From IMG/VR virus record IMGVR_UViG_3300029953_000172, positions 1 to 21,084 of that record: a DNA stretch of 21,084 nt; one strand, 5' to 3'. This document shows positions 1-20,652 of this stretch, one piece after another. The notes under the pieces are model-generated. The model saw nothing but the letters and a program-made list of their open reading frames with translations. It ran no database searches and was not told where the DNA came from. A program made the translations under genes and the position numbers. This DNA comes from a virus. The first letter of the stretch is position 1; each line of letters opens with the position of its first letter.

Positions 1-1761
1 AAATAAGTGATCCATAGCGACGCCAAGGCGGGCGAAGTCCTTGGTGGTGTCCGAAAGGCTATTAGGCACCTTACTAAAATAATCATTAAAATCGCTTAGT
101 GCCGCCGACACCATCTCGCTCGCTTTACCTTCGGCGTTAAGGTTTCGAAGATGCTCCATCTCCTGCTCATTGATAGCCGGGTATTCGACATTGAACTTGG
201 CTATTGCCTCAATACCACCCTCAAATACCTGCTTAAGTGTGGTTCCCGCCGACGCCAGATCGGTACCATTCAACATTCCAAAGTTGCTGGAAGTCTGGGT
301 AAACTTTTGAGGGTCCAACTTAAGATTGTTGTCAGTAGCCCGCTGAGACAGCATGGACATTGTATCTGCACGGGAATAGGTGGAATTACCGGCGATATCG
401 AAAGATGCCCCGCGTAGCTGCTGGGCGTTTACCGAACCCGTATTTCCGGTCAACTGCATCTGCATGTTGAGGGTACGAACTTCCTGGGAAGCGGCAGCCG
501 ACTTAGCCGCAAACTCCCCAAGAACTACAGCAACAGCCGCAATACCCCCGAGCATCCCGAACGACATATTACGCACGAGACCCATGTACTCAGACATGAC
601 CATCATAGTGCCGGGGATACGGGAGAAGTTACCCGTTACGATCTCATGGCCCATGACGATGAATTCACGGGTGAGCATGGCAGTGGCACCCCGCGCCTTA
701 CCTGCGCCTTCCTCCACCTTACCAAGGGCATCTTCGTATTGCTGTGCGTTCTGGTCCAGTTTATCCTTTACATCATCCTGAGATATAACGCCGTTGACCA
801 ATCCCCTGCGAATTTTGGCCTCATTCTGTGCGTATTCAACCGCCGCTTTAGGCACCTGACCAATAGAATGATCTATGCTGGCAGCCTTGGCCCGCTGTTC
901 TGCCTCTACCGCAAGTGTCTCCTGTCGAGCCATGGTGATACGCTGTTCACCTTCGGCCTTAAGCCTAGCAACGGTGTCACTGGTGGGGCCACCCCCCGTA
1001 GAGGTGCGCTGCTGCGCATACGAAGCATCTTCGGCAGCGGAGGCATCCTGCCGATCCTGCTCAAGCCTCTGCTGATATTCAGCACGGAGTTGTTCACGGG
1101 ATTTTCCGCCAAATAGACGCTGGTTTACCTGTTCTGAGACATCACCCTGCGGAGGGGTCATAACCCGCATCTGGGATGCAAGCTCCGCCTGGACACCAAG
1201 ATGGTTGGAAAAAAACGCAGCACTGTCCTTGGCCGTCTTATCGCCGGTACCCGTTTGACCAGTGAGCATGCGAATACGCTCAAGCGTAGCCTTTGCGATC
1301 TGCTCTTGGGCGACTACCTCTTGGGCAGCAGCAACTTTGGAGGCCTCCGCCTCTGCTCGTCGGCTTTCTGCAAGCTGAGCAGAGGCGTTGGCGACATTGC
1401 GTAAAATAGATACGCCCTTGGCACTATCTGCAAAGAAGCCAGCCTGGGCTCCTGTAAGTTTAATGGTTGCTCCGGTCAAAAGATCGGTAGCAACTCTGGC
1501 CTCGCTAACTCCACCTGCGACGGCAGAGAAGTCCGAACGCATCCGGGCGATACCGCCAGCCTGGGCCGTAACCTCTTTGATGGCAGCCGACATAGCAGAA
1601 AACCCGCTGCCGACGTTGGCACCGGAGCCCATAGCTTGTACGGCGGAAGCAATGTCCCGCATCTGGCTTGCAAACGTTTGCATGTCGCCAGACACTTGTT
1701 GGATGGCAGCGGAAGCTTCATTGCGGAACCGCAGGGTAAATTCAAGATCGGTACCAGCCAT
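1..1761 (-). CDS. Tail tape measure protein (N-terminal 587 residues, runs off the window)
   Basis: This open frame starts with ATG at 1761 and stays open to base 1, so only the N-terminal 587 codons are present. A GGGAG Shine-Dalgarno sequence lies 7 bases upstream of the start. The protein begins MAGTDLEFTLRFRNEASAAI and continues as an Ala/Gln/Ser-rich, helical, coiled-coil-like chain. Near residues 370-390 it carries GHEIVTGNFSRIPGTMMV, typical of tape measure proteins, followed by a hydrophobic segment around residues 395-415 that could cross a membrane. Tape measure proteins set tail length and often help DNA entry. The position straight after the frameshifted tail chaperone pair fits lambda-like order (G, GT, H). 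A copy of the dispersed palindrome lies inside the gene at 1669-1682, encoding MQTFAS. The role is secure from order and composition; the C-terminus is unseen. Confidence 0.93.
   Translation of the reverse strand, partial: MAGTDLEFTLRFRNEASAAIQQVSGDMQTFASQMRDIASAVQAMGSGANVGSGFSAMSAAIKEVTAQAGGIARMRSDFSAVAGGVSEARVATDLLTGATIKLTGAQAGFFADSAKGVSILRNVANASAQLAESRRAEAEASKVAAAQEVVAQEQIAKATLERIRMLTGQTGTGDKTAKDSAAFFSNHLGVQAELASQMRVMTPPQGDVSEQVNQRLFGGKSREQLRAEYQQRLEQDRQDASAAEDASYAQQRTSTGGGPTSDTVARLKAEGEQRITMARQETLAVEAEQRAKAASIDHSIGQVPKAAVEYAQNEAKIRRGLVNGVISQDDVKDKLDQNAQQYEDALGKVEEGAGKARGATAMLTREFIVMGHEIVTGNFSRIPGTMMVMSEYMGLVRNMSFGMLGGIAAVAVVLGEFAAKSAAASQEVRTLNMQMQLTGNTGSVNAQQLRGASFDIAGNSTYSRADTMSMLSQRATDNNLKLDPQKFTQTSSNFGMLNGTDLASAGTTLKQVFEGGIEAIAKFNVEYPAINEQEMEHLRNLNAEGKASEMVSAALSDFNDYFSKVPNSLSDTTKDFARLGVAMDHLF
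1669..1682. repeat. Dispersed palindrome, site 1 (exact TGCAAACGTTTGCA)
   Basis: Exact 14-bp palindrome inside the tape measure gene, about 85 bp after its start codon. It encodes QTFA in the gene's frame, so it is constrained by both protein and site. Confidence 0.9.
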
Positions 1762-1776
1762 ATGAAAGCTCCCGCT

Positions 1777-2543
1777 TTATGTATTGTTCAACCTCTTCAT
1801 CCGTTCCGCTTCGCCCTCGGAAACCGCCATATCGATGATTTCCATGAAGGTAACGAATGCAATTGGTTGATCCATCCAAGTTCCGGCATCCGGGAGTAAC
1901 CCCTTTTTATGCCAGCGATAGAGGCGGAACAGTTCTGCGTAGAAAGCCGAGTTTTCGTACTGTGGCTTTTTAGGGCAGAACCACGCCTCCTCCCCGTCAA
2001 AGGAATACGGTATGGGCGCTTTTTCTTTGCACCCATACCGTGACTTCATGCTTGGGGTACACTTGCTGCATTGCCTATCCGGCAGGAGAATTCCAGCAAG
2101 TGTGACCCCTCTTAGTTTTTTGCGGCGGCTGCCGTGACGGTGTTCAGGTCGGACAGCTTATCCGCGATCTCTCGGACCAACTGAAGGCCGAGGGCGTCGG
2201 TCATGGCGTCGGTAGCCACGGTGCGGTCCTTACCGTCGATTACGCGAACCTCCGTGGTGAAGGGGACAGGATTGCCGCTGGCATCCTGGAAGTTCAAGAT
2301 GCCCTGTAGGCCGAACTTGACGGTCTCGATGGCCGCAAGATTGCCGTGGTGGACAGAAACCATCTTGTCGGCGTCGTTGGGGTCGGGCTGCCAAGTGAAG
2401 GCGGCGTCTTTGATCAGAGCCTGCTCACGGGCGGAGATTGTGCCCAACAGAAAAACAGTGGCTCCAGCCTCTTCCGTCTGAGCCGGATCAGTCTTGGAGA
2501 TGTGACGGGCCTGGATGCCCGAAGAAACCGCAATAAGCGCCAT
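1777..2543 (-). CDS. Tail assembly chaperone G-T fusion made by -1 ribosomal frameshift
   Basis: The first reading frame (2543-2112) ends just after the slippery heptamer A AAA AAC (2121-2115). A -1 slip there continues into the frame that runs to a stop at 1777-1779, with no stop between. The product is about 255 residues: 143 from G plus 112 from the T frame, starting LRGVTLAGILLPDRQ. The only ATG early in the T frame (2049) has no Shine-Dalgarno sequence, which argues that T is made only by frameshift, as in lambda. The T part has cysteines as C-x2-C, a third about ten residues on, and a further FC, so it may bind metal. It also has a segment LPDAGTWMDQPIAFVTFMEI. By analogy with lambda gpG/gpGT, the pair would coat the tape measure and recruit tail tube protein. 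The frameshift is inferred from sequence, not measured. Confidence 0.85.
2054..2121 (-). promoter_or_regulatory. Programmed -1 frameshift signal (slippery heptamer plus hairpin)
   Basis: On the minus strand the heptamer A AAA AAC (2121-2115) is followed by a five-base spacer, TAAGA. A long stem comes next: 2109-2094 (GGGGTCACACTTGCTG) pairs with 2068-2054 (CAGCAAGTGTACCCC), giving 15 base pairs with one bulged C and a 25-base loop. The loop itself contains TGCC/GGCA that can pair. Heptamer, spacer and stem match the classic -1 frameshift layout, and the frame reached has no stop before the T coding region. Confidence 0.9.
2112..2543 (-). CDS. Tail assembly chaperone G-like protein
   Basis: 143 residues, starting MALIAVSSGIQARHISKTDP at ATG 2543 with GGGAG eight bases upstream. 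A longer open frame extends upstream to 2807 but overlaps the tail tube gene, so I chose 2543. The protein has no recognisable catalytic motif. It ends TAAAAKN just after the slippery site and stops at TAA 2112-2114. Its place between the tail tube gene and the tape measure gene, and the frameshift into the T frame, identify it as the G-type chaperone. Unshifted ribosomes make this short form; a minority should make the G-T fusion. A hairpin containing a copy of the dispersed palindrome lies directly upstream (2567-2592) and could lower expression relative to the tail tube gene. Confidence 0.85.
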   Translation of the reverse strand: MALIAVSSGIQARHISKTDPAQTEEAGATVFLLGTISAREQALIKDAAFTWQPDPNDADKMVSVHHGNLAAIETVKFGLQGILNFQDASGNPVPFTTEVRVIDGKDRTVATDAMTDALGLQLVREIADKLSDLNTVTAAAAKN

Positions 2544-2566: not shown

Positions 2567-2592
2567 GCCCCTTGCAAACGATTGCAAGGGGC
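2567..2592 (-). terminator. Hairpin between tail tube and G genes, containing dispersed palindrome site 2
   Basis: An 11-bp perfect stem (GCCCCTTGCAA / TTGCAAGGGGC) closes a 4-base loop in the 59-bp gap between the tail tube gene and the G gene. The inner 14 bases (2573-2586) are the dispersed palindrome with one mismatch, TGCAAACGATTGCA. On the minus strand the stem is followed by ATCTTTCCC, so it is a weak terminator or attenuator candidate rather than a classic one, lacking a full T run. It may also work as a protein-binding site. Confidence 0.6.
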
Positions 2593-3852: not shown

Positions 3853-4086
3853 TTACTCCTTCACCAAAACACGGCGACCATCGTCACCAATGACGTAATG
3901 ACCACCGATGCCCGCTGATACGGGAACGTGGGCAGCCTGGGTTTCTTTCGCGACCTCGGGCTTGCAAACGTTTGCATCCTCGGTAACTTCAGGCTCCTCG
4001 TGAACCTCTGGAGCCTCCTGCTTCTCTTCCTCGGGGGCTTCCCCCTCAGCGCCTTGCGGCTTTTCGTGACCAAAAAGGTGGGCCAT
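3853..4086 (-). CDS. Small acidic protein of unknown function
   Basis: 77 residues, starting MAHLFGHEKPQGAEGEAPEE at ATG 4086 with AGGAG nine bases upstream. The first half is Glu/Pro-rich and probably disordered. The end, GGHYVIGDDGRRVLVKE, may be a small folded beta hairpin. I do not recognise a family. It lies between a tail-terminator-like gene and the tail tube gene, 8 bp before the latter, so it is probably co-translated with tail proteins. The dispersed palindrome at 3963-3976 sits in its coding sequence and encodes ANVC, the same peptide that the site encodes in the ParB-like and scaffold-like genes. Confidence 0.75.
   Translation of the reverse strand: MAHLFGHEKPQGAEGEAPEEEKQEAPEVHEEPEVTEDANVCKPEVAKETQAAHVPVSAGIGGHYVIGDDGRRVLVKE
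3963..3976. repeat. Dispersed palindrome, site 3 (exact)
   Basis: Exact TGCAAACGTTTGCA within the small acidic gene, about 115 bp after its start codon. It is read as ANVC in that gene's frame. Confidence 0.9.
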
Positions 4087-6052: not shown

Positions 6053-6066
6053 TGCAAACGTTTGCA
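6053..6066. repeat. Dispersed palindrome, site 4 (exact)
   Basis: Exact TGCAAACGTTTGCA directly upstream of the GGAG ribosome-binding site of the connector gene (ATG 6040), and downstream of a terminator. This is one of the copies in an untranslated region. Confidence 0.9.
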
Positions 6067-7568: not shown

Positions 7569-8954
7569 TTAGTTCAGGCCGATGAGATGGCGGAGGTTCA
7601 TGGTCTTAGCGGCCTTGATCTCCTTGGTCTTCTCGTCTTCCGACTTGCTGGCCTCTTCCACGCCGTCCGTACCCTCGGACTTGCGGGAAGGTGCCCGCTC
7701 CCCGATGGCTTTGGCTTCCGCCGCCGCTTTGGATGCCGTTTCGTTGGCCTTGATGGCGGTAGTGGTGGCATCTTCCACCTTAAGACTCACGCCGTCAACC
7801 TTCTTGTCGATAGTACCGATGGCCGAAGACATGGTACCCAGCGCCTGGACGATGCTGTCCATGCTCTTGCAAACGTTCGCAAGAGCCTCGGCAGTGGCAT
7901 CGGCCTTAGCAGCGGTGTCGCCCTGCCTGTCACCGTTCTCGGCTTCTTCGTCGCCGCGATCCATGTCCTTGGTCTCGGGGTCTTTGCAGCCCTTGGTGGC
8001 GACTAGGCTGTAGACCATCTCGTTGAAGGCAGCCTTGGCGACAAGCATCTTAGCCGGATCAGCCTTAGCCGACTTGACCGATTTCTGCACATCGTCGGTA
8101 TCCAGGCCCGAGAACAGTTCGAACAGCGACGCGATGATACCGCCGAACTCGTTGCCGATGGAAACCAGCTTGGCGCGAACGTCCTTGCCGCTGGAGATGG
8201 CATTCGCCATGGCGTAGCAGGTAGCCTGCGTCACGTCATCGAAGCCGGGGGGCAGCGGGTCATTGTTCAGGCCATCCGACACCACGTCGATAACGGTCTC
8301 CTCGGCGGAGTCATACATGCCCCACCAGGAAATCTTACGGGTTGTGACCTTCCCGCTTTCCGACTTGGCAGAGGCAGCGGTGGTGGCCGGTCCCTCTTCA
8401 CCGCCGGTACCGGCGTCCTGGTTGGTACCGTTCTCGTCGTCCGAGGTGGCAGCAGGCTTGGCCTTGGCAGCTTTGTCCGCCGCCTCTTCCGCCGGGTCTT
8501 CGACAACGGGATCGGTGGTCGTGGTGGCAGCCGTATCGTTCTTGGCAACCTTGACGTTGCCCACGAAGCCCTGAACGCCGGTTTCCATCTTTACGGCACG
8601 GATACCTTCGAAAGCATCGTCGGTGACGCCCTTCTCAGCGGCTTCGAAGCCCTCGGCGGTAGCAGTGACAACGATGTCGCCGCTCCAGTCGTTCTTCTTC
8701 AGCCAATCCTTCACCGCGCCCTCGTCAGCGAACGTGCCTTTGGCGAACGTCAGCTTACGGACGGCGGTGGGCTTGGCAGTTTTTGCCGCGCTCACACGCT
8801 TATTAATCGACATGTCCTCGTCTCCGCTTCCATCTCGTTTCAAGGAAGAAAATGGGGTCTGGTTGGCCCCGTGGTCAACAACCGAGACCCACTTAGGCTC
8901 GGTATTCGTCAGAAGCTTGACCAGCTTCTCGACTTCTTTAACTCCTGGCTGCAT
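7569..8954 (-). CDS. Scaffold-like / XkdF-associated head morphogenesis protein
   Basis: 461 residues from ATG 8954 (MQPGVKEVEKLVKLLTNTEP), chosen because AGG precedes it and it lies 11 bp after the protease gene's stop; the frame extends further upstream without a credible start. Residues 20-35 include WVSVVDHGANQTPF, the 'VSLVDxGANxxPF' signature seen near the N-terminus of many XkdF-type phage proteins. A low-complexity Ala/Lys/Asp/Glu-rich region follows (about 140-210), then a helical middle and a C-terminal coiled coil (from about MDSIVQALGTMSSAIGTIDK). Placement between protease and capsid genes and the acidic, helical composition suggest a scaffold removed by the protease during head assembly. 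No catalytic residues are evident. It contains a 24-bp near-palindromic copy of the dispersed site. Confidence 0.7.
   Translation of the reverse strand: MQPGVKEVEKLVKLLTNTEPKWVSVVDHGANQTPFSSLKRDGSGDEDMSINKRVSAAKTAKPTAVRKLTFAKGTFADEGAVKDWLKKNDWSGDIVVTATAEGFEAAEKGVTDDAFEGIRAVKMETGVQGFVGNVKVAKNDTAATTTTDPVVEDPAEEAADKAAKAKPAATSDDENGTNQDAGTGGEEGPATTAASAKSESGKVTTRKISWWGMYDSAEETVIDVVSDGLNNDPLPPGFDDVTQATCYAMANAISSGKDVRAKLVSIGNEFGGIIASLFELFSGLDTDDVQKSVKSAKADPAKMLVAKAAFNEMVYSLVATKGCKDPETKDMDRGDEEAENGDRQGDTAAKADATAEALANVCKSMDSIVQALGTMSSAIGTIDKKVDGVSLKVEDATTTAIKANETASKAAAEAKAIGERAPSRKSEGTDGVEEASKSEDEKTKEIKAAKTMNLRHLIGLN
7863..7886. repeat. Dispersed palindrome, site 5 (one mismatch, extended to 24 bp)
   Basis: Core TGCAAACGTTCGCA (7868-7881) has one mismatch. 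The symmetry extends five bases further on each side (GCTCT / AGAGC), giving 24 bases with a single mismatched pair. It lies in the interior of the scaffold-like gene, read as ANVC, far from any gene start. Confidence 0.88.
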
Positions 8955-8965
8955 GGCACCTAGCC

Positions 8966-9574: not shown

Positions 9575-11334
9575 CGATCACTCCTGACGCGAGCCCGCTT
9601 CCTTGCAGACGTTTGCAAGACCACGACATTACCCGCTGCTTCCTTCAAGTCTTCGTTGAGCTTGCGTAGGGTGGATTTCACGGTGTCCTGGGGGGTGGCG
9701 TTGGGCTTGGGGGCTTTATCCTTGCCATTACCGGCTAGATTATCCTCGTTGCCCGTATCATTGCCGCCAGTGCCAACGGTCTGATCGATCTCTTCAACGA
9801 ATTTGTCGAGACCCTTGATAGTCTTGCCCGCCTGCACCGATGCAAGGATGTAGTTGAAGGGGGCGTTACCCCAGTCTTCAACAATCGGCTCGATCTGGCT
9901 ATCAAGCATCTTGTTGGCGATCTTGATGACCACATTCGGTGTCAGAGCACCCTGATCACCGAAGGCTTTCAGCATGGTCGCCAGGGACTGGGGCTCGTTC
10001 AAGGATGGTGCTAAGGTCTTAAACTTCCAGAACTTGGGACGATACGTGAACAGCACGAAGCGGTTCATCAGGTCATCGAAGCTGGTACGCTCTGGGGCGA
10101 AGACCTGATTTTCAGCCGTCAACATAGATGCCAGGGCGGAAGCCCGCGTATAATCTTCAGCCCGACCAACATAAATCGGGGGTAGCCGGAATGAGGATCG
10201 GACCTTACCCTGGCCCTTTTCGTCGTAGTCCTGGAACAGGCCGTCCTGCTGGCGTTCCGAAATCATCGGCTTCATATCGATCTTCGGGGCAGGCTGGGTT
10301 GTATCGATGCTACCAGCATTGTCATCGGCGGCAGCTTCCAGCACCATGACCCGCTGCATAGAGTCCTGACCACGGGTGGCGTTGATGTAATCTTCGATGC
10401 GATCAAAGCTGTCTTCGGTAAGGGCACCGCCCGATACCAAGACGGTCATAGCCGGGATGGCGTTGTCCCTGAAGAAGTTCAGGTTCACCATCTCACTCTC
10501 TCGGCAGCCCAGGATCGAGGGGATTTGCCCGATGTAGCGGGGCAGCCCGTAGACAGAGCCTGGAGCATACAGATAGTCCCAGTGGACTTCGGTAGCCTGC
10601 TGCTCAGGTGCGAGTGTCTTATCAACGTCACCAGTTACGGGGCTGATCGAGCGTGGATCACCAAATTCCTTGAAGAATACCCGCTTGCCCGAATAGCCAA
10701 TCTGCACGAAGCGGCGGAAGTGGCGCATGACCTTGCGGGTAGTGAAGCCATCATCGTCAGGATCGGGGATGGTAATGGTGACTTCGGTGGGCACTAGGTC
10801 ACGCTTGGTGACGCGCATGGTGACGGCTGGAATATGGACCATTTCAAGAATGGTGCCCTTGTTCGTCCGCACGATCTCAAAGAAGCGATTGCCCAGACCC
10901 TCCAAATCCCAACGGGACCACTCGCGCATCTGCCGCAAGGTCATCTCAGACGAGGGGAATTCCAGGAAGGCTTCCAGTCGGCGCTTCTCATCCTGTGGAC
11001 CCTCGGTATGCTCCTGACCGGCTGGCCCGATATACTCCAGCGTATAGCCGTTGCTTTCCGTGTTGATCACGTAGCTTTCGATGCACTGGCGGAGGATGTT
11101 GGATTGTAGGATAAGCTGGGCCAAGCGCATGAAGGGGTACACGGGCTCGATGGCCCCGCGCATACCCACACCATACTGGTTAGCAAAGGGGTCGGTAAGC
11201 TGCTTACTTTCCTGCGCCTTGTACACCAGTTCAAGGATAAAGGGGGCACACTGTCCCTTACGGGTGGGGGCTGATATTTGCCGACCGCGCTTGGCAGTCT
11301 TGCTAACCCCTGTAATACGGCGCTGAATACCCAT
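9571..11334 (-). CDS. Portal protein (PBSX-like)
   Basis: 587 residues, starting MGIQRRITGVSKTAKRGRQI at ATG 11334. The core carries the portal pattern: FMRLAQLILQSNILRQCIES, a wing with strands, then VYGLPRYIGQIPSILGCRES, NLNFFRDNAIPAMTVLVSGG and FRLPPIYVGRAEDYTRASAL. The 'VYGLPR.IG...S' and 'FR.N.A.P.' steps are characteristic of PBSX-type portals. The C-terminal ~80 residues are Asn/Gly/Lys-rich and end in the basic RKRARVRSDR, possibly disordered. The portal forms the dodecameric gate for DNA at one capsid vertex and docks the terminase. The ribosome-binding site AAGGG lies inside the 3' arm of a long hairpin (11339-11375). A dispersed palindrome lies near the gene's 3' end (9604-9617). 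Confidence 0.9.
   Translation of the reverse strand: MGIQRRITGVSKTAKRGRQISAPTRKGQCAPFILELVYKAQESKQLTDPFANQYGVGMRGAIEPVYPFMRLAQLILQSNILRQCIESYVINTESNGYTLEYIGPAGQEHTEGPQDEKRRLEAFLEFPSSEMTLRQMREWSRWDLEGLGNRFFEIVRTNKGTILEMVHIPAVTMRVTKRDLVPTEVTITIPDPDDDGFTTRKVMRHFRRFVQIGYSGKRVFFKEFGDPRSISPVTGDVDKTLAPEQQATEVHWDYLYAPGSVYGLPRYIGQIPSILGCRESEMVNLNFFRDNAIPAMTVLVSGGALTEDSFDRIEDYINATRGQDSMQRVMVLEAAADDNAGSIDTTQPAPKIDMKPMISERQQDGLFQDYDEKGQGKVRSSFRLPPIYVGRAEDYTRASALASMLTAENQVFAPERTSFDDLMNRFVLFTYRPKFWKFKTLAPSLNEPQSLATMLKAFGDQGALTPNVVIKIANKMLDSQIEPIVEDWGNAPFNYILASVQAGKTIKGLDKFVEEIDQTVGTGGNDTGNEDNLAGNGKDKAPKPNATPQDTVKSTLRKLNEDLKEAAGNVVVLQTSARKRARVRSDR
9604..9617. repeat. Dispersed palindrome, site 6 (one mismatch)
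   Basis: TGCAGACGTTTGCA, one mismatch from the consensus, extended to 18 bases (9602-9619) by flanking CT/AG. It lies within the last codons of the portal gene and about 30 bp upstream of the protease gene start. Confidence 0.88.
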
Positions 11335-11338
11335 GAAA

Positions 11339-11375
11339 ATCGCCCTTGTTGCAAACGTTTGCAGTCAAGGGCGAT
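11339..11375 (-). terminator. Long hairpin over the portal ribosome-binding site, containing dispersed palindrome site 7
   Basis: ATCGCCCTTG (11339-11348) pairs with CAAGGGCGAT (11366-11375), and inside lies an exact TGCAAACGTTTGCA (11350-11363). The element is therefore almost fully palindromic, apart from an AC versus A asymmetry. On the minus strand the 3' arm contains AAGGG, the portal gene's Shine-Dalgarno sequence, and is followed by TTTTC then ATG. It could act as an attenuator (stem plus T run), as a fold hiding the ribosome-binding site, or as an operator with extended symmetry. The sequence does not decide between these. Confidence 0.65.
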
Positions 11376-11832: not shown

Positions 11833-12354
11833 TTATTGCTCCTCTTTAGCATCAAGTTCAGCTTGGACCTGATCGGCAATGGTGGTGGGCTCCTCAACGT
11901 CCGGGTCAACTGCCTCGGCTTCGGCATCAACAAGCCTGCCAAAGAACGGATTATTACCCATACGAAACGGGTAGATCGGGCAGTTGGTGGACGCGCATTC
12001 CCGGATTAGCGAAACGCTACCACCCATGCACTCAGCGCAAAAAGCTCGGATGCCGGTCAGGGGTGATCGGATGCGCTCACGGTACTTGTTGACCACTGCA
12101 TCACCACGCCCACTATGCACGATGAAAAGAAGATCATCGGTTGGGACGGACTTTGGGTTTTGGTCGCGGTACACGGCACGGCATAGGGCCAGCTTGTATA
12201 GATGCTTGGCCTTGAGGGCTTTTACCACAGGGCGCGGAGTCTGCACTTCCAACTCTTCTAAGGCGTCCAGGAGGTGGTTTGACTCCACTTCGGCTTGGTT
12301 GACTGGTTTGAGGAAGCGGTGACGGTCCTCCACCCACTCGTCTATCTCGCTCAT
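11833..12354 (-). CDS. Cys-rich putative zinc-binding protein, paralogue A
   Basis: 173 residues, starting MSEIDEWVEDRHRFLKPVNQ at ATG 12354 with AAGG about nine bases upstream. Helical N-terminal half; then VPTDDLLFIVHSGRGDAVVN, YRERIRSPLTGIRAFC, C-x2-C with MGGS, EC, NC and IYPFRMGNNPFFGRL; then an acidic tail rich in Glu/Ala/Asp. Four cysteines (FCAEC, REC, NC) could hold one zinc. It matches paralogue B over about 60 residues, and the DNA encoding RERIRSPLTGI is nearly identical. The first ~220 bp overlap the 3' end of the upstream open frame in another phase. No function known. Confidence 0.78.
   Translation of the reverse strand: MSEIDEWVEDRHRFLKPVNQAEVESNHLLDALEELEVQTPRPVVKALKAKHLYKLALCRAVYRDQNPKSVPTDDLLFIVHSGRGDAVVNKYRERIRSPLTGIRAFCAECMGGSVSLIRECASTNCPIYPFRMGNNPFFGRLVDAEAEAVDPDVEEPTTIADQVQAELDAKEEQ
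12050..12084 (-). repeat. 35-bp direct repeat, copy 2
   Basis: Second copy of the repeat, in paralogue A, 471 bp from the first copy and differing at one base. Confidence 0.85.
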
Positions 12355-13006
12355 CGTTTACTGCCTTATCTTTCAAAGTGATGATTACAGATAGAGCACC
12401 ATGCTCCCGATCTGTCAGGGTAACGTCAGGGCTGCTTCCCCCTGCTACCAATGAATTCATGCTTGGGCGCAGTTCTTTTGGTAGGGACTTATATTCTGAA
12501 AGCATGTACTGAACTAAGTGGTGAAAACCACCATCGGTAAGCAATACATTCTCCGCATCATAGTAGTACGTATGATTTGCAAACCGATATAAATCACAGA
12601 TAAGGTATCTGCTTCTATCAGCAAGTGGTCTTAGGTGCTCCACATCGTCTATGAACGCTATTAGCTTCCGAGTCATAAGCGTATCCGCTGCCGTTATGAT
12701 ATCAGTTTCTGGGTTTAACCCGTGGACGTGGCTTAATTCCAGAGCCCGATCCAGCATTGCCAGCGGTGATAGCTCGACCTTCGGCAAGGAGGGCTTCAAC
12801 CTCGGGGGTGCTTTGACCGCCCTCACCAACTCTTTTTCTGATCCCGATGAGGGGAGCGGCTGTCCGGGTGCAGGCTTTATCGATGATACCCTGCCAGTGA
12901 TGCGCGGGCCGCTCTTTGGGGCTACGGCGGATGAGACGGCTCCAGTGGCTTCCGAGGGGGGCGACGATGCTTTGCCCGGTGGTCTTTTTAGACGGAATGC
13001 ACTCAC
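12134..13006 (-). CDS. Unknown protein with long overlaps at both ends
   Basis: 290 residues from GTG 13006 (read MSAFRLKRPPGKASSPPSEA), with AGGAG 7 bases upstream, so the start is well supported even though it lies 305 bp inside the preceding frame. Residues 1-75 are Pro/Ser/Lys-rich and probably disordered. Residues 80-215 look folded and helical (AMLDRALELSHVHGLNPETD, MTRKLIAFIDDVEHLRPLAD, FANHTYYYDAENVLLTDGGF). The last ~73 residues overlap the next gene in another phase; they are Pro/Arg/Gly-rich and end RPKPKVRPNR. I do not recognise a family. The C-terminal tail could be a real overprinted extension, or could mean that a frame error hides an earlier stop. Confidence 0.6.
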   Translation of the reverse strand: MSAFRLKRPPGKASSPPSEATGAVSSAVAPKSGPRITGRVSSIKPAPGQPLPSSGSEKELVRAVKAPPRLKPSLPKVELSPLAMLDRALELSHVHGLNPETDIITAADTLMTRKLIAFIDDVEHLRPLADRSRYLICDLYRFANHTYYYDAENVLLTDGGFHHLVQYMLSEYKSLPKELRPSMNSLVAGGSSPDVTLTDREHGALSVIITLKDKAVNDERDRRVGGGPSPLPQTSQPSRSGVKPPPGRLRRVGSADSAPCGKSPQGQASIQAGPMPCRVPRPKPKVRPNR

Positions 13007-13682
13007 CTTCGATCTCCTGTAGCAGAACGTGCATGATCACTTCGCCTGCCCGATTACTTGACACCAGCGGCTTGAAAGCCCTGCCATTGGGCCTAACTCG
13101 GGGCTTACCGTCCTTGAGAGCCTCGTCCTTGTCCACCCGATAATATTTATCGATAAACATTTCGGGGTAGCAAGGGGAGTTGGCCTCGTAGCCTGGGTAC
13201 ATGGAGAACGGATTAGACACATAGGCAGCATAGGGCCACGTATCCCGCCAGGGATTGAAGTCCCTAAGATCGTCCGGGACCACTAGGCTTACCTGAACAT
13301 CCTCGGTCACAGCTTTAAGCCTGACGGGTGACATGGCATCCCTAGCAAGCCTGCGAATGAGGTAGCCTTTTTCCTTGAGCCCGCAAAACCAGGGGTTAGC
13401 GATGACCCGATGCACATCAAGTGCCTGGGCAAGCTCGTAGGGGCGAAGCTCATGGGAAGGGCCGAAGTGCTTGACCAGCCAATGACACAGAAGGCGTAGG
13501 CGCACGTCATCGATCCTCTGCACTCCGCTGTCGTAAGTCGGGGGATGCCCCGGTATCCAGGGCCGATGGGCTTTGTAGCCTTCTCCGTCCGCTATGTACG
13601 GGCTAAAGGTGAGCCGTAGCGGAGTAGAGTTTACCGTTGCAGACGTTTGCAAGGTTGGACGCTTTAAAATCTTTAAGGCCAC
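12702..13682 (-). CDS. Unknown protein, first gene after the structured leader RNA
   Basis: 326 residues from GTG 13682 (read MALKILKRPTLQTSATVNST), preceded by GGGGGCG. Residues 55-125 (VRLRLLCHWLVKHFGPSHEL, LAQALDVHRVIANPWFCGLK, EKGYLIRRL) look like a small helical domain with a winged-helix feel. A Trp/Tyr/Pro-rich central part follows (FNPWRDTWPYAAYVSNPFSM, YPEMFIDKYYRVDKDEA). From about residue 225 the frame overlaps the next gene for 305 bp and becomes basic and low in complexity, ending KPRPRVKPRN. No family recognised. A strong promoter and about 225 bases of structured leader precede it, so it heads its own transcript. A dispersed palindrome (13638-13651) lies in its first codons, encoding LQTSA. 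Confidence 0.65.
   Translation of the reverse strand: MALKILKRPTLQTSATVNSTPLRLTFSPYIADGEGYKAHRPWIPGHPPTYDSGVQRIDDVRLRLLCHWLVKHFGPSHELRPYELAQALDVHRVIANPWFCGLKEKGYLIRRLARDAMSPVRLKAVTEDVQVSLVVPDDLRDFNPWRDTWPYAAYVSNPFSMYPGYEANSPCYPEMFIDKYYRVDKDEALKDGKPRVRPNGRAFKPLVSSNRAGEVIMHVLLQEIEGECIPSKKTTGQSIVAPLGSHWSRLIRRSPKERPAHHWQGIIDKACTRTAAPLIGIRKRVGEGGQSTPEVEALLAEGRAITAGNAGSGSGIKPRPRVKPRN
13638..13651. repeat. Dispersed palindrome, site 8 (one mismatch)
   Basis: TGCAGACGTTTGCA, 16 bases (13637-13652) with one mismatched pair, about 35 bp inside the gene starting at 13682. The single difference is the same as at site 6. Confidence 0.88.
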
Positions 13683-13713
13683 TTATCGCCCCCAATAAGA
13701 ATACGTGATGCAA

Positions 13714-13908
13714 CTCTCGCCTTTCGGGCCAAGGCCTCGGGATCGAACCGACACACCTCCGGCACTTAACGCTGAACGCAGACCTCTTATTTCTCCACCG
13801 CGTCTTGTACGGTGTTATGAGATTGCCCGGCCTATCCTTTGCTACCGGGCAGCAGTATGTACCCGAAAAGCGAGAGCGTACCACCAACGAGGGTTGAACC
13901 CCGTCGAT
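13714..13908 (-). ncRNA. Putative structured RNA or leader with 15-bp closing stem and T-arm-like hairpin
   Basis: About 195 bases between the consensus promoter and the gene at 13682, with no credible coding. On the minus strand CTCTCGCTTTTCGGG (13876-13862) pairs with CCCGAAAGGCGAGAG (13728-13714): 15 pairs, one of them G-U. Inside lie a 7-bp hairpin TGCCCGG/CCGGGCA (13851-13824), a CACCG/CGGTG hairpin flanked by TCTC/GAGA, and TCGG-TTCGATC-CCGA (13751-13737), which looks like a tRNA T-arm. A GGG/CCC hairpin lies near the transcript's 5' end. The whole folds as a multibranch junction. I could not fit a complete tRNA or tmRNA. It may be a free small RNA, a regulatory leader, or a packaging element. 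Confidence 0.5.
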
Positions 13909-13913
13909 GCTGT

Positions 13914-13942
13914 ATAATAGCAATTAGCAGATTTTTTGTCAA
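13914..13942 (-). promoter_or_regulatory. Strong sigma70-type promoter
   Basis: On the minus strand TTGACA (13942-13937), a perfect -35, is separated by exactly 17 bases from TATTAT (13919-13914), a five-of-six -10. The spacer is AT-rich. Transcription should start near 13908. It lies 7 bp downstream of the terminase nuclease stop and feeds the structured RNA and the gene at 13682. It is the best promoter I see in the window. Confidence 0.8.
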
Positions 13943-13948
13943 CCGATA

Positions 13949-14686
13949 TTAACGCCGGGTCAGTCGTTTTCGCTCGACAGTCTGACGCTTCATTGTGGGT
14001 CGTTTTAAGCGGCTAGACGTAGTGCTTGCAGCATCCCTATCGATGTCAGTATTACCGGCTGAAGCGGCGGCGGCTTCTCGGGCTGCATCCGTGCCTAGCA
14101 GGTGCGTACCCGTGCGGGAGCTAACTGCAATACCGGCCCAAGCTGCGCGACGATTGAGCAGGAAGGAGACCACCCCACACACCGCATCGGCCACATCTTT
14201 CGAGCCTTGAGGGCGATGGTCTACCTTTTCTTTATTGTTGATAATGGTGGTCTCAAGCTCGGAAAGTTCCTTTAGGAGGTACTGGTGCTGGGGTACTAAG
14301 ACCCGAGTATCGTACACCGCATCCCGGAAAGCTCGCCACGGTTCGATCTTTTCAACAGACAGATAATCGGTCTGAAACCCGTACTTGCGCATGATCTGCC
14401 TCAAATCGACCGACTGAAATCCGTCTGTCGTCACGTACTTAATGGGCAGGCCATGCACATCGCGTAGCCGCTTAATCAACTCGCGTATCTGAGCAAATTC
14501 TATCTCCCCACCAGGAGGAGGAACTATCCGTAAGACCAGATCAATAGCGATCACGGGGAGGATTTCGTGAGTGGGTTCACCCTCCTCAACCTTATATCGC
14601 TCCACTAGCTTGGTACCTGCGATGTGCCCGATGGCAATACCGCAAGCATCCTTCTTTAAACCAAGATCGATATGAAAGTACGGAAG
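13949..14686 (-). CDS. Terminase large subunit, nuclease part (separate frame)
   Basis: This frame opens after a TAG at 14687-14689 and encodes YFHIDLGLKKDACGIAIGHI, then VIAIDLVLRI, KYVTTDGFQSVDLRQIMRKY and HRPQGSKDVADAVCG, which together are the RNase H-like terminase nuclease with its acidic residues (D in HIDLG, D in TTDGFQS, D in GSKDVADA). The only usual start codon, a GTG at 14605, lies downstream of HIDLG. Independent translation from there would lose the first catalytic Asp. The frame is -1 relative to the ATPase part, and the two overlap for about 30 bases. A fused product would be about 691 residues, long for the family owing to a basic Ala/Thr/Arg-rich tail of ~70 residues. The nuclease cuts concatemeric DNA during packaging. 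Confidence 0.85.
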   Translation of the reverse strand, partial: LPYFHIDLGLKKDACGIAIGHIAGTKLVERYKVEEGEPTHEILPVIAIDLVLRIVPPPGGEIEFAQIRELIKRLRDVHGLPIKYVTTDGFQSVDLRQIMRKYGFQTDYLSVEKIEPWRAFRDAVYDTRVLVPQHQYLLKELSELETTIINNKEKVDHRPQGSKDVADAVCGVVSFLLNRRAAWAGIAVSSRTGTHLLGTDAAREAAAASAGNTDIDRDAASTTSSRLKRPTMKRQTVERKRLTRR

Positions 14687-16023
14687 CTATCGACATCCAA
14701 ACGCAGCCTATCTTTATCGGGTCGTGGCATCCCGATTGACAGATCGATTTCTTCGAAGTTAAAGGGCAGCTTATAGCCCTGCCTATCGGCCTCCGCCATG
14801 CAGGAGTGTATGGCCTCTCTTTTACCAAAGAAGGGATGGGCCGACATCACGGTGACGCCGCCAAAGTCGCGTAGTGCCCCCTCGCAGTCTTTATTGAAGT
14901 CAGCGAAGAAATCCATGGGAACGTCTATGGTCTGGACACCCGGAAGTACCTCGGCATCGTCTGCCAGTATCTTCGACCGCACCTTATCGTTACCGATCTG
15001 AACACGGAAGCTTTCCGGCAGGAAGTGCTCACGCCCCTTAGATGACCACTGCGAATGGCTATACACATAGATGGTGGGGTCCGTGCCCCCGCACATGACG
15101 CTTTCCTTGGCCTTCTGCTCGGTGAAGTCGTCAGGGTACCGGGAGGAGGAGACCAGAAACAGGATGCCGGGAACCTTTCCCTTACGAGTGAAGCGCGAAC
15201 GCCTGCGTCGGCTCAGGGTGTTGTAAAGCTGCTTCGCCTGATCGAAGGCACCTGTATCCATGTCGGCGTAGCTAGACTTGGAACGTTCGATCTTCTGCAT
15301 GAAGTTCATTTCGTCGAGGATGCCCCCGATGACGTTCATGGAGATAGCGCCCGTGGGGCCAGAAGATACCGGCAGGATAGATACGTTCTGCTCCCGGAAG
15401 ATCATCTGGGATGTGACGGTCTTATCGTAGGGGTAGACAGTGCGGAAGTAGGCCGAATGATTGATGTATGCCCCGAACTCCTCAAATACCGCCTTCTTGG
15501 CCGTGTTAAACCGCACGGATTGGATGGTAAATACGATAGATGACTTCGATTGGATGCCGTAGGTTGCCTGGGGGTGCCGCATACAGGAAAGCTTATAGAC
15601 ACCTCGGGCAATCCCCGCGTTACCTATGGTGCTTTTTCCTGAACCGATGCAGCCCTTTAGGCAGGCCTCGCCATAGGCTTCCCCGTCTAGCTCCTCTAGT
15701 GCCTCCCGGACGGCAGGGAAGGTGCTGGTTTCGTCCATGCCAAGATAGGTAGGGCTAAATAGGAATTCGTCTAGGGGAACAACCCGCCGCCGCCACTCGC
15801 AAGCCGACAGCAACTGTTTAACGTCCCCGGAGCTTGCGAACGTTTGCAACGCATCAAGATACAGTTCTCGGGTCTCCCCGTCCTCGATACCGTTGGCCTC
15901 CGTGATGATCTGTTGATAGATCATAAAGGTGCGCTCATCAAGGCTGAACTGCTCGTCACCCAGCGAGGCGCTAGGTGCGAGTTTTATCAGGTGCTTTGGC
16001 CTTGGCAGAATTCGAATTGCCAT
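14656..16023 (-). CDS. Terminase large subunit, ATPase part
   Basis: 455 residues from ATG 16023 (MAIRILPRPKHLIKLAPSAS), overlapping the small terminase gene by 53 bp. Walker A is GCIGSGKST at residues 124-132, and Walker B is VIGGILDEMN at about 231-240 with the catalytic DE. FLVSSSRYPDDFTEQKAKES carries the SS coupling region at about 285-305. This is the packaging motor that pumps DNA through the portal. The frame ends DVDSFRTFISILV and stops at 14656-14658, exactly where the nuclease domain should begin; that domain continues in the -1 frame. I see no classic X XXY YYZ slippery heptamer in the overlap, although TTC to TTT slippage at 14676-14674 is possible. The alternatives are a real gene split or a sequence error. 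Confidence 0.93.
   Translation of the reverse strand: MAIRILPRPKHLIKLAPSASLGDEQFSLDERTFMIYQQIITEANGIEDGETRELYLDALQTFASSGDVKQLLSACEWRRRVVPLDEFLFSPTYLGMDETSTFPAVREALEELDGEAYGEACLKGCIGSGKSTIGNAGIARGVYKLSCMRHPQATYGIQSKSSIVFTIQSVRFNTAKKAVFEEFGAYINHSAYFRTVYPYDKTVTSQMIFREQNVSILPVSSGPTGAISMNVIGGILDEMNFMQKIERSKSSYADMDTGAFDQAKQLYNTLSRRRRSRFTRKGKVPGILFLVSSSRYPDDFTEQKAKESVMCGGTDPTIYVYSHSQWSSKGREHFLPESFRVQIGNDKVRSKILADDAEVLPGVQTIDVPMDFFADFNKDCEGALRDFGGVTVMSAHPFFGKREAIHSCMAEADRQGYKLPFNFEEIDLSIGMPRPDKDRLRLDVDSFRTFISILV
15835..15848. repeat. Dispersed palindrome, site 9 (one mismatch)
   Basis: TGCGAACGTTTGCA, 16 bases (15834-15849) with one mismatched pair, in the terminase ATPase coding sequence (read LQTFAS) about 180 bp after its start. 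Confidence 0.88.
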
Positions 16024-16681
16024 TGTTCAGGGCTCCGAGGAACTGTTCTGTCAGGGTGGACATGCGATCTCTCGCGCTTTCGTCTACCCGTAGCTTATGA
16101 ATGTTTGAAGCAGCGTCAGCAGGAAGGGCGTGGCCCGAGGCTGCCGTGGAAGTGATACCCTTGCCCTGAACTTTAGCTAGGGTTTCGAGCAACAGTCGGG
16201 TTTCGGCTATTTCCTTGTGGGCATTGGGCTGTAACGCGCCAAGGCTTTTCATCATGTCCTGCTGTTCGAAGTCAACGACAGCCCGGAGCCGTACCTTCTG
16301 TAGACGAATGAGGCGGTTAAGCTCGACCTCAACATCCATGTCCGGTTGGTTGGCGTCAATAACTCCATCAATGCTGTTTTTGTTATCCGATTTGCAGTAT
16401 TCCGGGTAGGTCCGCTTGAACGTCCCGATATACACCATAAAGGTGTTCTCGTTGATGGAGTCCAGCCAACCTTCCCTAGCAAACCAACCCGCTATGTCCT
16501 GAAACTTTAGGCCCTCCTTAAGAGCCGAGATAATCAACTCTTTCTTGGGATGATTGAGGATGTAGCGCAGTTGGCTTTCGGCCACCTTCTGCGCGGGGGT
16601 CGGTTGAACGCCAGCCGCCCCCGCATTGATCTTTCTGCGGGGGCGTATAAGGCGAGACCGACCAGTGTTAGGACTGGGCAT
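15971..16681 (-). CDS. Terminase small subunit (probable)
   Basis: 236 residues from ATG 16681 (MPSPNTGRSRLIRPRRKINA). A TTG at 16708 is the only earlier start. The start overlaps the upstream gene by 14 bp and has no strong ribosome-binding site, so translation may be coupled. After a basic N-terminus comes a helical HTH-like region (ESQLRYILNHPKKELIISAL, LKFQDIAGWFAREGWLDSIN, TFMVYIGTFKRTYPEYC), then a long helical segment (VEVELNRLIRLQKVRLRAVV) and a low-complexity C-terminus. DNA-binding N-terminus, coiled-coil centre and position directly before the large subunit fit a small terminase, which recognises the packaging site. No family-specific motif proves it. Confidence 0.7.
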   Translation of the reverse strand: MPSPNTGRSRLIRPRRKINAGAAGVQPTPAQKVAESQLRYILNHPKKELIISALKEGLKFQDIAGWFAREGWLDSINENTFMVYIGTFKRTYPEYCKSDNKNSIDGVIDANQPDMDVEVELNRLIRLQKVRLRAVVDFEQQDMMKSLGALQPNAHKEIAETRLLLETLAKVQGKGITSTAASGHALPADAASNIHKLRVDESARDRMSTLTEQFLGALNNGNSNSAKAKAPDKTRT

Positions 16682-17666
16682 CGATCTGCGTGGTCGCCAA
16701 CTCGGCAACCTGAGTGGTGGCGAGTGAGGAGATGTCGGTCGTGGTCAGGCCCGAGATTTCCGTGGAAGCCAGCGGGGCCAGTTCAGTGGTGGTCAGCGTA
16801 TCGATCTGGGTAGTGGTCAGAGCCGACAGTTCGGCGGTTTCCAGAACCGAGATTTCGGTGGTGGTCAGAGCTTCGGCAACGGTGGAAGAGGCCGGGCCGG
16901 TATAGGCGGTGGTGTCCACGGTCCAATCGGCATCCGGGGTGGGGCGATAGGCATCATTGGTGGCGACGAAGACAGCCGAATTATCTTCATCGTTAAAAAT
17001 CTGGGTGCCGTCAGCGTCGAACAACTGGAAGACATCACCGGCCACCAGCTTATCGAAAATCTTCTTGGTCGAGAACGTGGCGGGCTCGCCGCCAAGAACC
17101 AGGACATAGCGTTCGGTGGCGTCGGTGCCCGCGTTGTCCACATCGCCTGAGACTTCGCCAGCCACCGGCTCGGGAGCGGCAGGGGGGATGACCTCGGCGG
17201 GAGCCGGGGCAGCGTCGGTCAGGTTCAGGCCTTCGCCAACATCGTTGACCAGGGCTTTGCCTTCCTGCACGACATCGCCAACAACGGCCTCAACCTTGTC
17301 GGCTTCCGTCTTGGCAGCATCGGCAGCCGCGACGGCCTCGGTCTTAATCTTTTCCCAGACGGAGCCCAGGATGGCAGAGGCGTCATCACCGGCAATGGAC
17401 ACCAGATGGCGCAAATAGGTCTCGACGTGGGCAGCCGCATCTTCCAGGTCATCGACCAGTTCGATGGGAGCCTGCACGGCGTCCCGCTTGACGGTGGCGA
17501 TGAGGTCATGGGCCTCTTCGATGGTGGCGGGAAGGTCTTTGTGAACGACATCGCCAGCGGTGGTGGTAACGTCCTGGGCGATCAAGTGCAGCACATGGCC
17601 GGTACGCAGCGCAAACGCCACGAGGTAGCCCTCGGCAGTCTTGATGATCTGAAACTTAGCGGCCAT
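16668..17666 (-). CDS. Unknown protein with eight C-terminal 8-residue repeats
   Basis: 332 residues, starting MAAKFQIIKTAEGYLVAFAL at ATG 17666 with AAGGATTG upstream, three bp after the ParB-like gene. Residues 1-60 look like a small beta/alpha domain. Residues 60-150 are Ala/Asp/Glu/Val-rich and helical, and 150-175 are Pro/Ala-rich. Residues 185-260 are a second folded part (RYVLVLGGEPATFSTKKIFD, LVAGDVFQLFDADGTQIFND). Residues 266-329 are eight consecutive octads of the form x-L-T-T-T-E/Q-I-S/D. Such LTTTQ-type repeats occur in large surface proteins of some alphaproteobacteria, from memory and not checked. Function is unknown; a virion-surface or adhesion role is possible but unsupported by position. 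Confidence 0.75.
   Translation of the reverse strand: MAAKFQIIKTAEGYLVAFALRTGHVLHLIAQDVTTTAGDVVHKDLPATIEEAHDLIATVKRDAVQAPIELVDDLEDAAAHVETYLRHLVSIAGDDASAILGSVWEKIKTEAVAAADAAKTEADKVEAVVGDVVQEGKALVNDVGEGLNLTDAAPAPAEVIPPAAPEPVAGEVSGDVDNAGTDATERYVLVLGGEPATFSTKKIFDKLVAGDVFQLFDADGTQIFNDEDNSAVFVATNDAYRPTPDADWTVDTTAYTGPASSTVAEALTTTEISVLETAELSALTTTQIDTLTTTELAPLASTEISGLTTTDISSLATTQVAELATTQIDAQS
16680..16871 (-). repeat. Eight tandem 24-bp (8-residue) coding repeats
   Basis: The units encode ALTTTEIS, VLETAELS, ALTTTQID, TLTTTELA, PLASTEIS, GLTTTDIS, SLATTQVA and ELATTQID. Leucine at position 2, Thr at 4 (except one unit) and a hydrophobic residue at 7 are kept, suggesting a regular solenoid or coiled structure. 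The DNA units have diverged more than the protein pattern. Confidence 0.85.
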
Positions 17667-17669: not shown

Positions 17670-18551
17670 TCAATCCTTCTTACGGATAGGTTTGGGATGA
17701 ACACCCGATGCCTTGACTGTAACCGATTTTTCGACACCAGACAAGATAACGCCCGATAGCAGTTGCTTCCACACATCGTCGGCTTGTCGGCCCGAGGTGA
17801 TAAGCTCCTGCTCAAAAGCGCCGAGTAGTTTATGGGTCTCCTGGGAAACCTTGAAGTAGTGGTGCTTCTTACCACCGAAGGAGAACACCAGGAAATCGCT
17901 TTCCAGGTTGCTACCGTTCTCCTTGAAGATGGTATTAAGCACGGAAGACAGATCGTCAACGGAGCGGATCGTTTCCTTGGCTTCCTCCAGCTTGGCTTTC
18001 TGGCGAGGAGGCAGTTTATCGGCAACCGATTTGTAAAGCTGTTCGAAAGCTTTCTTCTCGGTTAGACCCATCATCCGCTTGACCATTTCCCGGTCCATGC
18101 CCCGGCCAACGGCCTTATTATAGAGCTTGGTGAACTTCTCGGGATCGATGGTGCCTCGCAGCATATTACGGCGAACGAGGTTGGCTTCAATAGCGATGTC
18201 GTTCCACTCGGGCTTAAGGATGCACGGCACCTTTTTCATGCCGATGACCTTAGCCGCTTTGGTGCGGTGGTGGCCCGAGGCCAGAAGGTAGCGTCCGGTG
18301 AACACTCCCTTATCGTCGATCTTGGGCACCACAAGGCAGGGCTCGTCGAAGCCGTCTTTCCGCATACCCTCGCACAGTTCGTCGAAGGTGGCGTCGGACA
18401 TAGCATTAGGGTTTTCTTCGTGACCGTCGATAAGCTCGATAGGCACGTCGAATACCTTGACAATAGATGACTCCTCAAGCTGTTGCTCGGGAGCCGGGGG
18501 CTTGCAAACGTTTGCAGGCTTGGTGATAGGCTTGGCCTTAAGGAGTGCCAT
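17670..18551 (-). CDS. ParB-like protein with HTH (ParB/Spo0J N-terminal domain)
   Basis: 293 residues from ATG 18551 (MALLKAKPITKPANVCKPPA), chosen over an upstream start because the extension overlaps the P-loop gene; GGGGGAA lies about 7 bases upstream. Residues 31-110 are a ParB-type domain: VFDVPIELIDGHEENPNAMS, then YLLASGHHRTKAAKVIGM, where SGHHRTKAA (92-100) is the GxxR motif that binds CTP in ParB proteins. Residues 119-135 (IAIEANLVRRNMLRGTIDPE) match the linker, and 149-176 (GMDREMVKRMMGLTEKKAFE) form the helix-turn-helix. The C-terminal ~110 residues are unrecognised. ParB proteins bind palindromic 16-bp parS sites and may slide along DNA; phage homologues may also be regulators or nucleases. 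Its own gene carries a dispersed palindrome. Confidence 0.85.
   Translation of the reverse strand: MALLKAKPITKPANVCKPPAPEQQLEESSIVKVFDVPIELIDGHEENPNAMSDATFDELCEGMRKDGFDEPCLVVPKIDDKGVFTGRYLLASGHHRTKAAKVIGMKKVPCILKPEWNDIAIEANLVRRNMLRGTIDPEKFTKLYNKAVGRGMDREMVKRMMGLTEKKAFEQLYKSVADKLPPRQKAKLEEAKETIRSVDDLSSVLNTIFKENGSNLESDFLVFSFGGKKHHYFKVSQETHKLLGAFEQELITSGRQADDVWKQLLSGVILSGVEKSVTVKASGVHPKPIRKKD
18503..18516. repeat. Dispersed palindrome, site 10 (exact)
   Basis: Exact TGCAAACGTTTGCA, 35 bp after the start codon of the ParB-like gene and read as ANVC there. Outer GC/GC bases extend the symmetry to 20 bases with one mismatched pair. Confidence 0.9.
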
Positions 18552-18822: not shown

Positions 18823-19063
18823 TTTCACCCCCGAGGAAAGAGGGACGATCCGCCAGATAGCGCAGAGCCGAGGCAAAGGCCTCTTCCTGCTTCGTAATGG
18901 CGAAGTCCAGAGTGCGATGGGCGGGGAGCCCGTGCAGAGTGCTCATCGTGTTAAGGTGTGATTGCACGATGGTATCAACCGCATTGCGCTCCAACTCGGA
19001 ACCACGGACCCGGATTGCGTCAACAAGAATACGTGCGCTGGGGCACAGACGAGACACGCCCAT
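18812..19063 (-). CDS. Small protein resembling the Acb2/Tad1 hairpin family
   Basis: 83 residues from ATG 19063 (MGVSRLCPSARILVDAIRVR) with AAGGAG eight bases upstream. It is almost entirely helical: one long helix (ILVDAIRVRGSELERNAVDT), a turn with LPAHRTLDF, then AITKQEEAFASALRYLADR. The last part matches the pattern I recall for the Acb2/Tad1 hairpin family (P-x-x-R-x4-A-I/L-T-K-x-E-E-A-x3-A-x3-L). Some members of that family sequester cyclic nucleotides and block CBASS or Thoeris signalling. The match is by eye from memory. Many small phage proteins with this hairpin have no tested function. It sits between a glycosyltransferase and a P-loop gene in an accessory block, as anti-defence genes often do. 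Confidence 0.6.
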   Translation of the reverse strand: MGVSRLCPSARILVDAIRVRGSELERNAVDTIVQSHLNTMSTLHGLPAHRTLDFAITKQEEAFASALRYLADRPSFLGGENAD

Positions 19064-19068
19064 AATGC

Positions 19069-20616: not shown

Positions 20617-20638
20617 AGTGGTAGCTCCTGGTAGGCGC

Positions 20639-20652
20639 TGCAAACGTTTGCA
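20639..20652. repeat. Dispersed palindrome, site 11 (exact)
   Basis: Exact TGCAAACGTTTGCA in the 41-bp gap between the SLOG gene and the glycosyltransferase start, just upstream of the AGGAG. TTTGCAAACGC continues on one side, so a second overlapping half-site is present. Confidence 0.9.

Follow-up and report, generated by a model that had tools for sequence, protein, structure and literature searches.

The 21,084-nucleotide (nt) stretch of viral DNA analysed here (the window; positions 1 to 21,084 of IMG/VR record IMGVR_UViG_3300029953_000172) comes from the end of a tailed phage genome that holds the structural genes, and it carries 11 copies of a short palindrome, or dyad, TGCAAACGTTTGCA, whose distribution, relatives and candidate reader proteins are the subject of this study. 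The minus-strand genes run in the order SLOG/DprA-like protein, glycosyltransferase, ParB-like protein, terminase, portal, protease, major capsid and tail genes. This order is syntenic with those of RcDurkin, a Rhodobacter phage, and JP1, an Agrobacterium phage, the RcDurkin terminase being 53% identical to that of the fragment. A megablast search with the whole fragment against the phage collection gave no match and no near-identical phage record.

At up to two mismatches, the fragment holds 11 matches to the palindrome, six of them exact, five with one mismatch and none with two (Table 1), whereas dinucleotide shuffles yielded 0.08 matches on average and never more than 1. Gaps between copies have a coefficient of variation (CV) of 0.25, as compared to 0.87 under random placement (P=0.0003), and on the minus (coding) strand 10 of the 11 copies are directly followed by A. 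An earlier note on this DNA had claimed these copies at these coordinates and with these gaps, a spacing more even than random, a symmetry prolonged by outer bases, and a palindrome that does not stem from coding homology. All four claims were borne out: copies occur in coding and non-coding DNA and in differing frames, and the outward extension recurs in JP1, where the 16-mer TTGCAAACGTTTGCAA is the usual form. The terminase dyad that codes LQTFA is common to the fragment and JP1 only, and JP1, RcDurkin and the Stenotrophomonas phage DLP3 have, like the fragment (9604), a dyad upstream of the capsid protease gene. Six-base-pair direct repeats lie around two of the fragment sites, perhaps by chance: CCTCGG at 3963 (3950-3982), and GGCTTG overlapping 18503 (18497-18523).

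Table 1. Dyad copies and the ParB-like gene in the window
Feature	Position	Strand	Context
Dyad TGCAAACGTTTGCA, exact	1669..1682		Within tape-measure-like gene (1-1761, minus)
Dyad, 1 mismatch, coding strand TGCAATCGTTTGCA	2573..2586		Intergenic; palindrome prolonged by flanks GCCCCT...AGGGGC
Dyad, exact	3963..3976		Within small open reading frame (ORF) 3853-4086 (minus)
Dyad, exact	6053..6066		Directly upstream of probable ATG start of minus-strand gene 5270-
Dyad, 1 mismatch	7868..7881		Within gene 7569-9071 (minus)
Dyad, 1 mismatch	9604..9617		3' end of portal gene; 29 nt upstream of capsid protease start (9574)
Dyad, exact	11350..11363		Portal start (11334) 15 nt downstream; arms GCCCTTG/CAAGGGC on flanks
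Dyad, 1 mismatch	13638..13651		Close to 5' end of ORF 12702-13682 (minus)
Dyad, 1 mismatch	15835..15848		Within terminase gene, codes LQTFA; same codons in JP1
Dyad, exact	18503..18516		5' part of ParB-like gene, codes ANVC
Dyad, exact	20639..20652		Upstream of glycosyltransferase gene (start about 20613)
ParB-like protein	17670..18551	minus	PF02195 ParB_N; phrog_26387

Dyads of this kind extend along the whole genome in a large family of phages and phage-plasmids, whose genomes measure roughly 80-110 kb. The cultured bearers span phages of Agrobacterium, Rhizobium, Rhodobacter, Stenotrophomonas, Vibrio and Aeromonas, and metagenomic contigs belong to the family as well. The architecture held in common is one of two 5-6 bp arms and a 4-bp centre, canonically TTGCAA-N4-TTGCAA; because TTGCAA is itself palindromic, the arms recur about one helical turn apart. 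Each genome has about 20-55 copies, at intervals of roughly 2-5 kb over its whole length. IMG/VR contigs with many copies were located by a scan for the exact 14-mer, and whole records were then counted at up to one mismatch, giving 35 copies in JP1 (96.9 kb) and 53, 25 and 21 in contigs of 102, 85 and 46 kb, respectively; in total, JP1 (97 kb) has 42 sites. The count in relatives proposed in the earlier note thereby yielded a genome-wide array in JP1 and several IMG/VR contigs, and a respelled one in others. The whole RcDurkin record contains no copy of the fragment's palindrome at up to one mismatch, because this phage uses TGCAATCGATTGCA in its place (21 exact copies, 49 at up to one mismatch against 0.01 expected, and 53 at up to two). 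A motif search free of prior assumption provided the spellings of the relatives: TGCAAT-NN-ATTGCA in the Stenotrophomonas phage DLP3 (the spelling also of DLP5), TTAA-centred dyads in RcZahn and Vibrio VH2_2019, a GTGCAA form in RHph_TM16, and TGCAAC-NN-GTTGCA in RHph_I4 (41 copies) and Aeromonas HJ05 (16 copies). Other arms are TGAAA, GCGCAA and GTGCACAC. The array is also present in KarBoss and SIO-2, and Vibrio 1.215, which was negative at first, has 17 degenerate copies against 0.36 expected. Across the relatives, the geometry is fixed while the letters differ by lineage.

These letters go with the phage rather than with the host. In the 5.4-Mb assembly of Paracoccus sp. MKU1, the one host assembly tested, 48 of 48 exact TGCAACNNGTTGCA sites are on a 96-kb phage contig and none is in the remaining ~5.3 Mb of host DNA. 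RcDurkin and RcZahn have the same R. capsulatus strain as isolation host, yet their dyads are unlike.

Spacing is also more even than random in the relatives. Against a random-placement CV of about 0.95, or about 0.9-1.0 as a range, taken as the baseline for the genomes of nine relatives, the CV was 0.49 in both JP1 and RcDurkin, 0.43 in DLP3, 0.41 in VH2, 0.44 in both HJ05 and G006, 0.56 in G007, 0.63 in G002 (P=0.02) and 0.70 in RHph_I4 (P=0.007). In JP1, where intergenic DNA makes up 7.6% of the genome, 26 of the 42 sites are wholly intergenic, and in 19 of the 42 an annotated start follows within 60 nt, as compared to a null mean of 5.0 and a null maximum of 12. The genic JP1 sites are 2309 bp from the nearest intergenic site, as compared to 1528 bp for random coding positions (P=0.034), and thus tend to occupy extended regions free of intergenic sites, of which the tape-measure gene is one; a sum-of-squared-gaps test of the same filling tendency in JP1 was not significant (P=0.14). 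Comparison of 29 ortholog pairs between JP1 and RcDurkin revealed a single position in common, that upstream of the capsid protease gene. Relatives preserve density and spacing but not the positions themselves, a pattern that suits an architectural role better than control over individual genes. The imperfect sites show a skew relative to transcription, those of JP1 having 3 mismatches in the left half and 23 in the right, and the commonest RcDurkin variant, TACAATCGATTGCA, occurs in 12 copies as against 3 in reverse.

Eighty RecA-bearing IMG/VR loci were taken and scored blind to motif identity; the 53 of at least 14 kb were analysed, and 11 protein families were tested. Of these proteins, it is the presence of phrog_17202 that follows the dyad best. 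This little-studied family, which is located in the replication module and has JP1_074 and RcDurkin gp82 among its members, was present in all 20 dyad-positive loci and absent from 25 of the 33 negative ones (Fisher 1.5e-8), counts that include near-duplicates (L217/L218) and one contig twice (L220 = L332) and are uncorrected for shared ancestry. RecA, Cas4, RuvC and DnaB were common in dyad-negative loci. Most of the phrog_17202-positive contigs that had at first been scored negative, among them G042, G033, G038 and G040, proved to bear a dyad at the scale of the whole contig, some with arms as divergent as CGCAA. With RecA controlled, motif distance correlated with distance in the C-terminal domain 2 of phrog_17202 (partial r 0.26, P=0.0015).

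In the structure model of phrog_17202, a helical domain is predicted with confidence and a small C-terminal helix-helix element is placed at 232-266; several members have Ala/Lys-rich, histone-H1-like tails. NCBIfam borfam_49 ('chromosome replication/partitioning protein') is matched by 7 of 29 members (best 4.6e-5), and DUF3102 weakly by two. Alignment by hhalign of phrog_17202 with PF49 of Borrelia cp32-1 gave a probability of 60% over 28 columns, as compared to 0.1% for a ParA control. PF49 is regarded as probably ParB-like and centromeric (PMC10406323). Two phrog_17202 proteins, of RHph_TM16 (29489-30313) and vB_VneS_J26 (57583-58191), carry the public annotation 'putative ribonuclease E/G family protein', probably because of low-complexity tails.

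Some of the array-bearing replicons persist in their hosts. The DLP5 prophage replicates as a phagemid (PMC5834331). This phage has 31 exact-arm sites; DLP3 is a stable lysogen former, and both are temperate. The Rhizobium bangladeshense plasmid p7 (NZ_CP071625.1, 109 kb) carries phrog_17202 together with 42 TGCAA-N4-TTGCA dyads and is an undescribed phage-plasmid of the dyad family. Two further contigs encode phrog_17202 and carry a dyad. One, G035, has a different repeated dyad, TCTCCTA-AT-TAGGAGA-like (TCCTA-N4-TAGGA) of the same 5-4-5 geometry, possibly a far-diverged version of the same system. The other, contig JALZUV010000087.1 of a Rickettsiales metagenome-assembled genome, has a CGCAAACGTTTGCG-type dyad with 4 copies at up to one mismatch in 11.7 kb and is probably a phage of the dyad family in a Rickettsiales bin.

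The sequence itself shows that the array exists, that its sites are evenly spaced, that the letters vary by lineage and that, in the single host assembly tested, the sites are found in phage DNA alone. To account for these features, we tentatively favour the view that the dyads are distributed centromere- or nucleoid-like sites, with a phrog_17202-family protein as their putative reader, rather than elements of gene-by-gene regulation. A phage-encoded dimer would bind every copy of the dyad, the most likely reader would be the conserved phrog_17202-family protein encoded in the replication module (JP1_074 or RcDurkin gp82), and the bound dyads may serve to organise, condense or segregate the genome during replication or plasmid persistence. 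A bolder form of this proposal, in which a PF49/DUF3102-like protein and 20-55 evenly spaced, lineage-specific, viral-only dyads turn the whole phage genome into a centromere or nucleoid of distributed sites, the protein and its dyads changing in step across the family, seems to us possible but somewhat doubtful.

Several findings weigh against the centromere- or nucleoid-like explanation and its candidate reader. The phrog_17202-positive G037 (100 kb examined) and G036 (40 kb examined) are without a dyad of the kind described here. A family of single-stranded DNA-binding proteins is second-best in co-occurrence and nearly equal, with a motif-distance r of 0.36 without control; residue-motif covariation does not single out phrog_17202, RecA columns scoring equally high; and the association of phrog_17202 with the dyad may reflect shared ancestry. 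The phrog_17202 gene lies outside the fragment, which stops short of the replication module, and we therefore infer its presence in the fragment's virus from relatives. The borfam_49 matches are under the curated cut-off (member L026 scores 19.7 bits vs 60), the phrog_17202 model has no significant fold match in the PDB, Foldseek having returned weak Raf1-like matches only, and the guess of a ribbon-helix-helix C terminus was confirmed by no sequence or fold match. No ParA was identified, in work that included no systematic ParA search, and SIO-2-like vibriophages are lytic by report.

The chief rival, which we judge unlikely but deserving of serious weight, is an array akin to the stoperators of cluster A mycobacteriophages, in which dispersed operators of a phage repressor (phrog_17202 or another) would block elongation along the prophage. 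The two arrays resemble each other in copy number, in their preference for intergenic DNA and in letters that vary by lineage (PMC6550527), and the orientation bias of imperfect sites in JP1 and RcDurkin, the frequent placement of JP1 sites directly upstream of start codons and the temperate nature of DLP5 and DLP3 all suit such operators. They are less readily reconciled with a best candidate reader that resides in the replication module and at no immunity locus, with evenly spaced sites that cover structural, replication and small-gene regions alike, or with an array that extends to the reportedly lytic relatives of SIO-2; moreover, the cluster A sites are asymmetric, as opposed to the dyads here. 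Some other whole-genome role, as marks for packaging or recombination, as targets of sequence-specific DNA modification or in self/non-self discrimination, would accommodate the even spacing, the restriction to phage DNA in one host assembly, the associated block of recombination and replication genes and the DNA of DLP5, which is heavily modified by report. However, no enzyme of packaging, recombination or modification in the set of 11 families tested outdoes phrog_17202 in following the dyad, and we hold this role to be improbable.

The earlier note had read the palindrome as a genome-wide protein-binding site. The genome-wide part stands, the array being family-wide and absent from the host's own DNA in the single host assembly tested, and binding by a protein is predicted from the sequence, but two of the readers that it put forward did not hold up. 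One was the ParB-like protein of the fragment, which would recognise the dyads as dispersed parS sites. Sites of the parS type are likewise 14-16 bp palindromes, the protein is encoded in the fragment and many array-bearing genomes, including all nine of the first comparison, and its ParB_N domain is confirmed (PF02195, 29.8 bits vs a cut-off of 26.3). Its structure model is poor (pLDDT, the model's per-residue confidence score, 59) and not usable, and a search of viral contigs with the fragment ParB alone as query gave no match. Protein and dyad part company, however, in both directions: Arthrobacter phages KellEzio (2e-72) and DanielleIgnace (9e-77) have a homologue without such a dyad, and Aeromonas HJ05 has the dyad yet no ParB match. 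The gene is found in 6 of 20 dyad-positive 20-kb loci, though ParB often lies outside the 20-kb RecA-centred locus, and the ParB proteins of G002 and G007 are 27-29% identical to that of the fragment despite a shared ACGT centre, while RcDurkin, at 40%, uses TCGA. We thus consider the ParB-like protein a very improbable reader. The other was a LacI/PurR-type regulator encoded by the host, for which the resemblance of GCAAACGTTTGC to the core of the E. coli PurR operator would speak. Phages of the same host with different dyads (RcDurkin and RcZahn), together with the confinement of exact sites to the phage contig in the Paracoccus assembly, argue strongly against it, as do the TGAAA, GCGCAA and GTGCACAC arms of relatives, and this reader is rejected as having virtually no prospect of being correct. 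A leader hairpin acting in RNA instead of a DNA site is hardly more credible. Although TTGCAA-ACGT-TTGCAA could form a 6-bp stem and many sites precede ribosome-binding sites, common variants disrupt the stem (JP1 TGCAAACGTTCACA, 4 times) and so disfavour the hairpin; some sites are deep within genes, and even genome-wide spacing is unexpected for a leader element.

Dispersed dyads of unknown function are already known, and the array of the present family adds a new version. Cluster O mycobacteriophages (Corndog) have more than 30 dispersed 17-bp dyads, TGTTCGG-NNN-CCGAACA, whose function is unknown (PMC4351075). The two arrays are alike in having perfect-armed dyads genome-wide, at intergenic and intragenic positions, and in predicted dimer binding. 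They differ in sequence, geometry (7-3-7 in cluster O) and hosts, and the cluster O copies are denser toward the right genome end. The present family does not follow the cluster O pattern and has TTGCAA-type dyads with 5-6 bp arms and a 4-bp centre, even spacing, lineage-specific letters at a fixed geometry and a candidate reader protein. Cluster A stoperators number 20-30 per genome, have a lineage-specific consensus that is asymmetric and in one predominant orientation to transcription, and are bound by the immunity repressor (PMC6550527). The present array shares with them dispersed repeated sites that reach the level of 20-30 and lineage-specific letters. Its consensus is a dyad, although imperfect copies are orientation-biased in JP1 and RcDurkin, and no link to a repressor emerged from the sequence. 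Palindromic sites, a weakly PF49-like candidate reader and the phage-plasmid state of some members recall ParB-parS and plasmid centromeres, including Borrelia PF32/PF49, but usual centromeres are one or a few clustered loci, as compared to 20-55 sites across the whole replicon here. HIP1 and DNA uptake sequences are likewise short, over-represented palindromic words; they occur throughout host genomes, whereas in the one assembly tested the present word is missing from the host DNA. The literature searched, which was mostly outside subscription journals, had no account of the dyads of this family, and the exact motif strings were in none of its relevant papers.

An architecture formerly known from isolated phage groups is thus seen across cultured phages and metagenomic contigs, with a candidate gene that makes the puzzle testable. 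The array suggests an unrecognised viral means to organise, segregate or silence the virus's own DNA. Were segregation its role, it would account for how large phages can be maintained as plasmids though they lack one classical centromere.

Several minor observations concern the genes of the fragment. The glycosyltransferase gene adjoins the ParB-like gene also in the otherwise unrelated Arthrobacter phages KellEzio and DanielleIgnace, and the pair is perhaps a mobile cassette for DNA or capsid modification. The terminase frame (13949-16023, minus) is interrupted near 14,600-14,660, leaving an N-terminal part of 455 amino acids (aa) and a separate ORF that resembles the C-terminal part; a frameshift or an assembly error is the likely cause. 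The RcDurkin terminase (11620-14760) is 1,046 aa long and aligns to that of the fragment in two pieces, the large insertion between them being possibly an intein. Two neighbouring ORFs of 136 and 173 aa (11422-12354, minus) both contain YRERIRSPLTGIRA with a cysteine-rich stretch and are tandem paralogues, and an ORF of 332 aa (16668-17666, minus) has TTTEIS/TTQIDxL-type motif repeats at its end.

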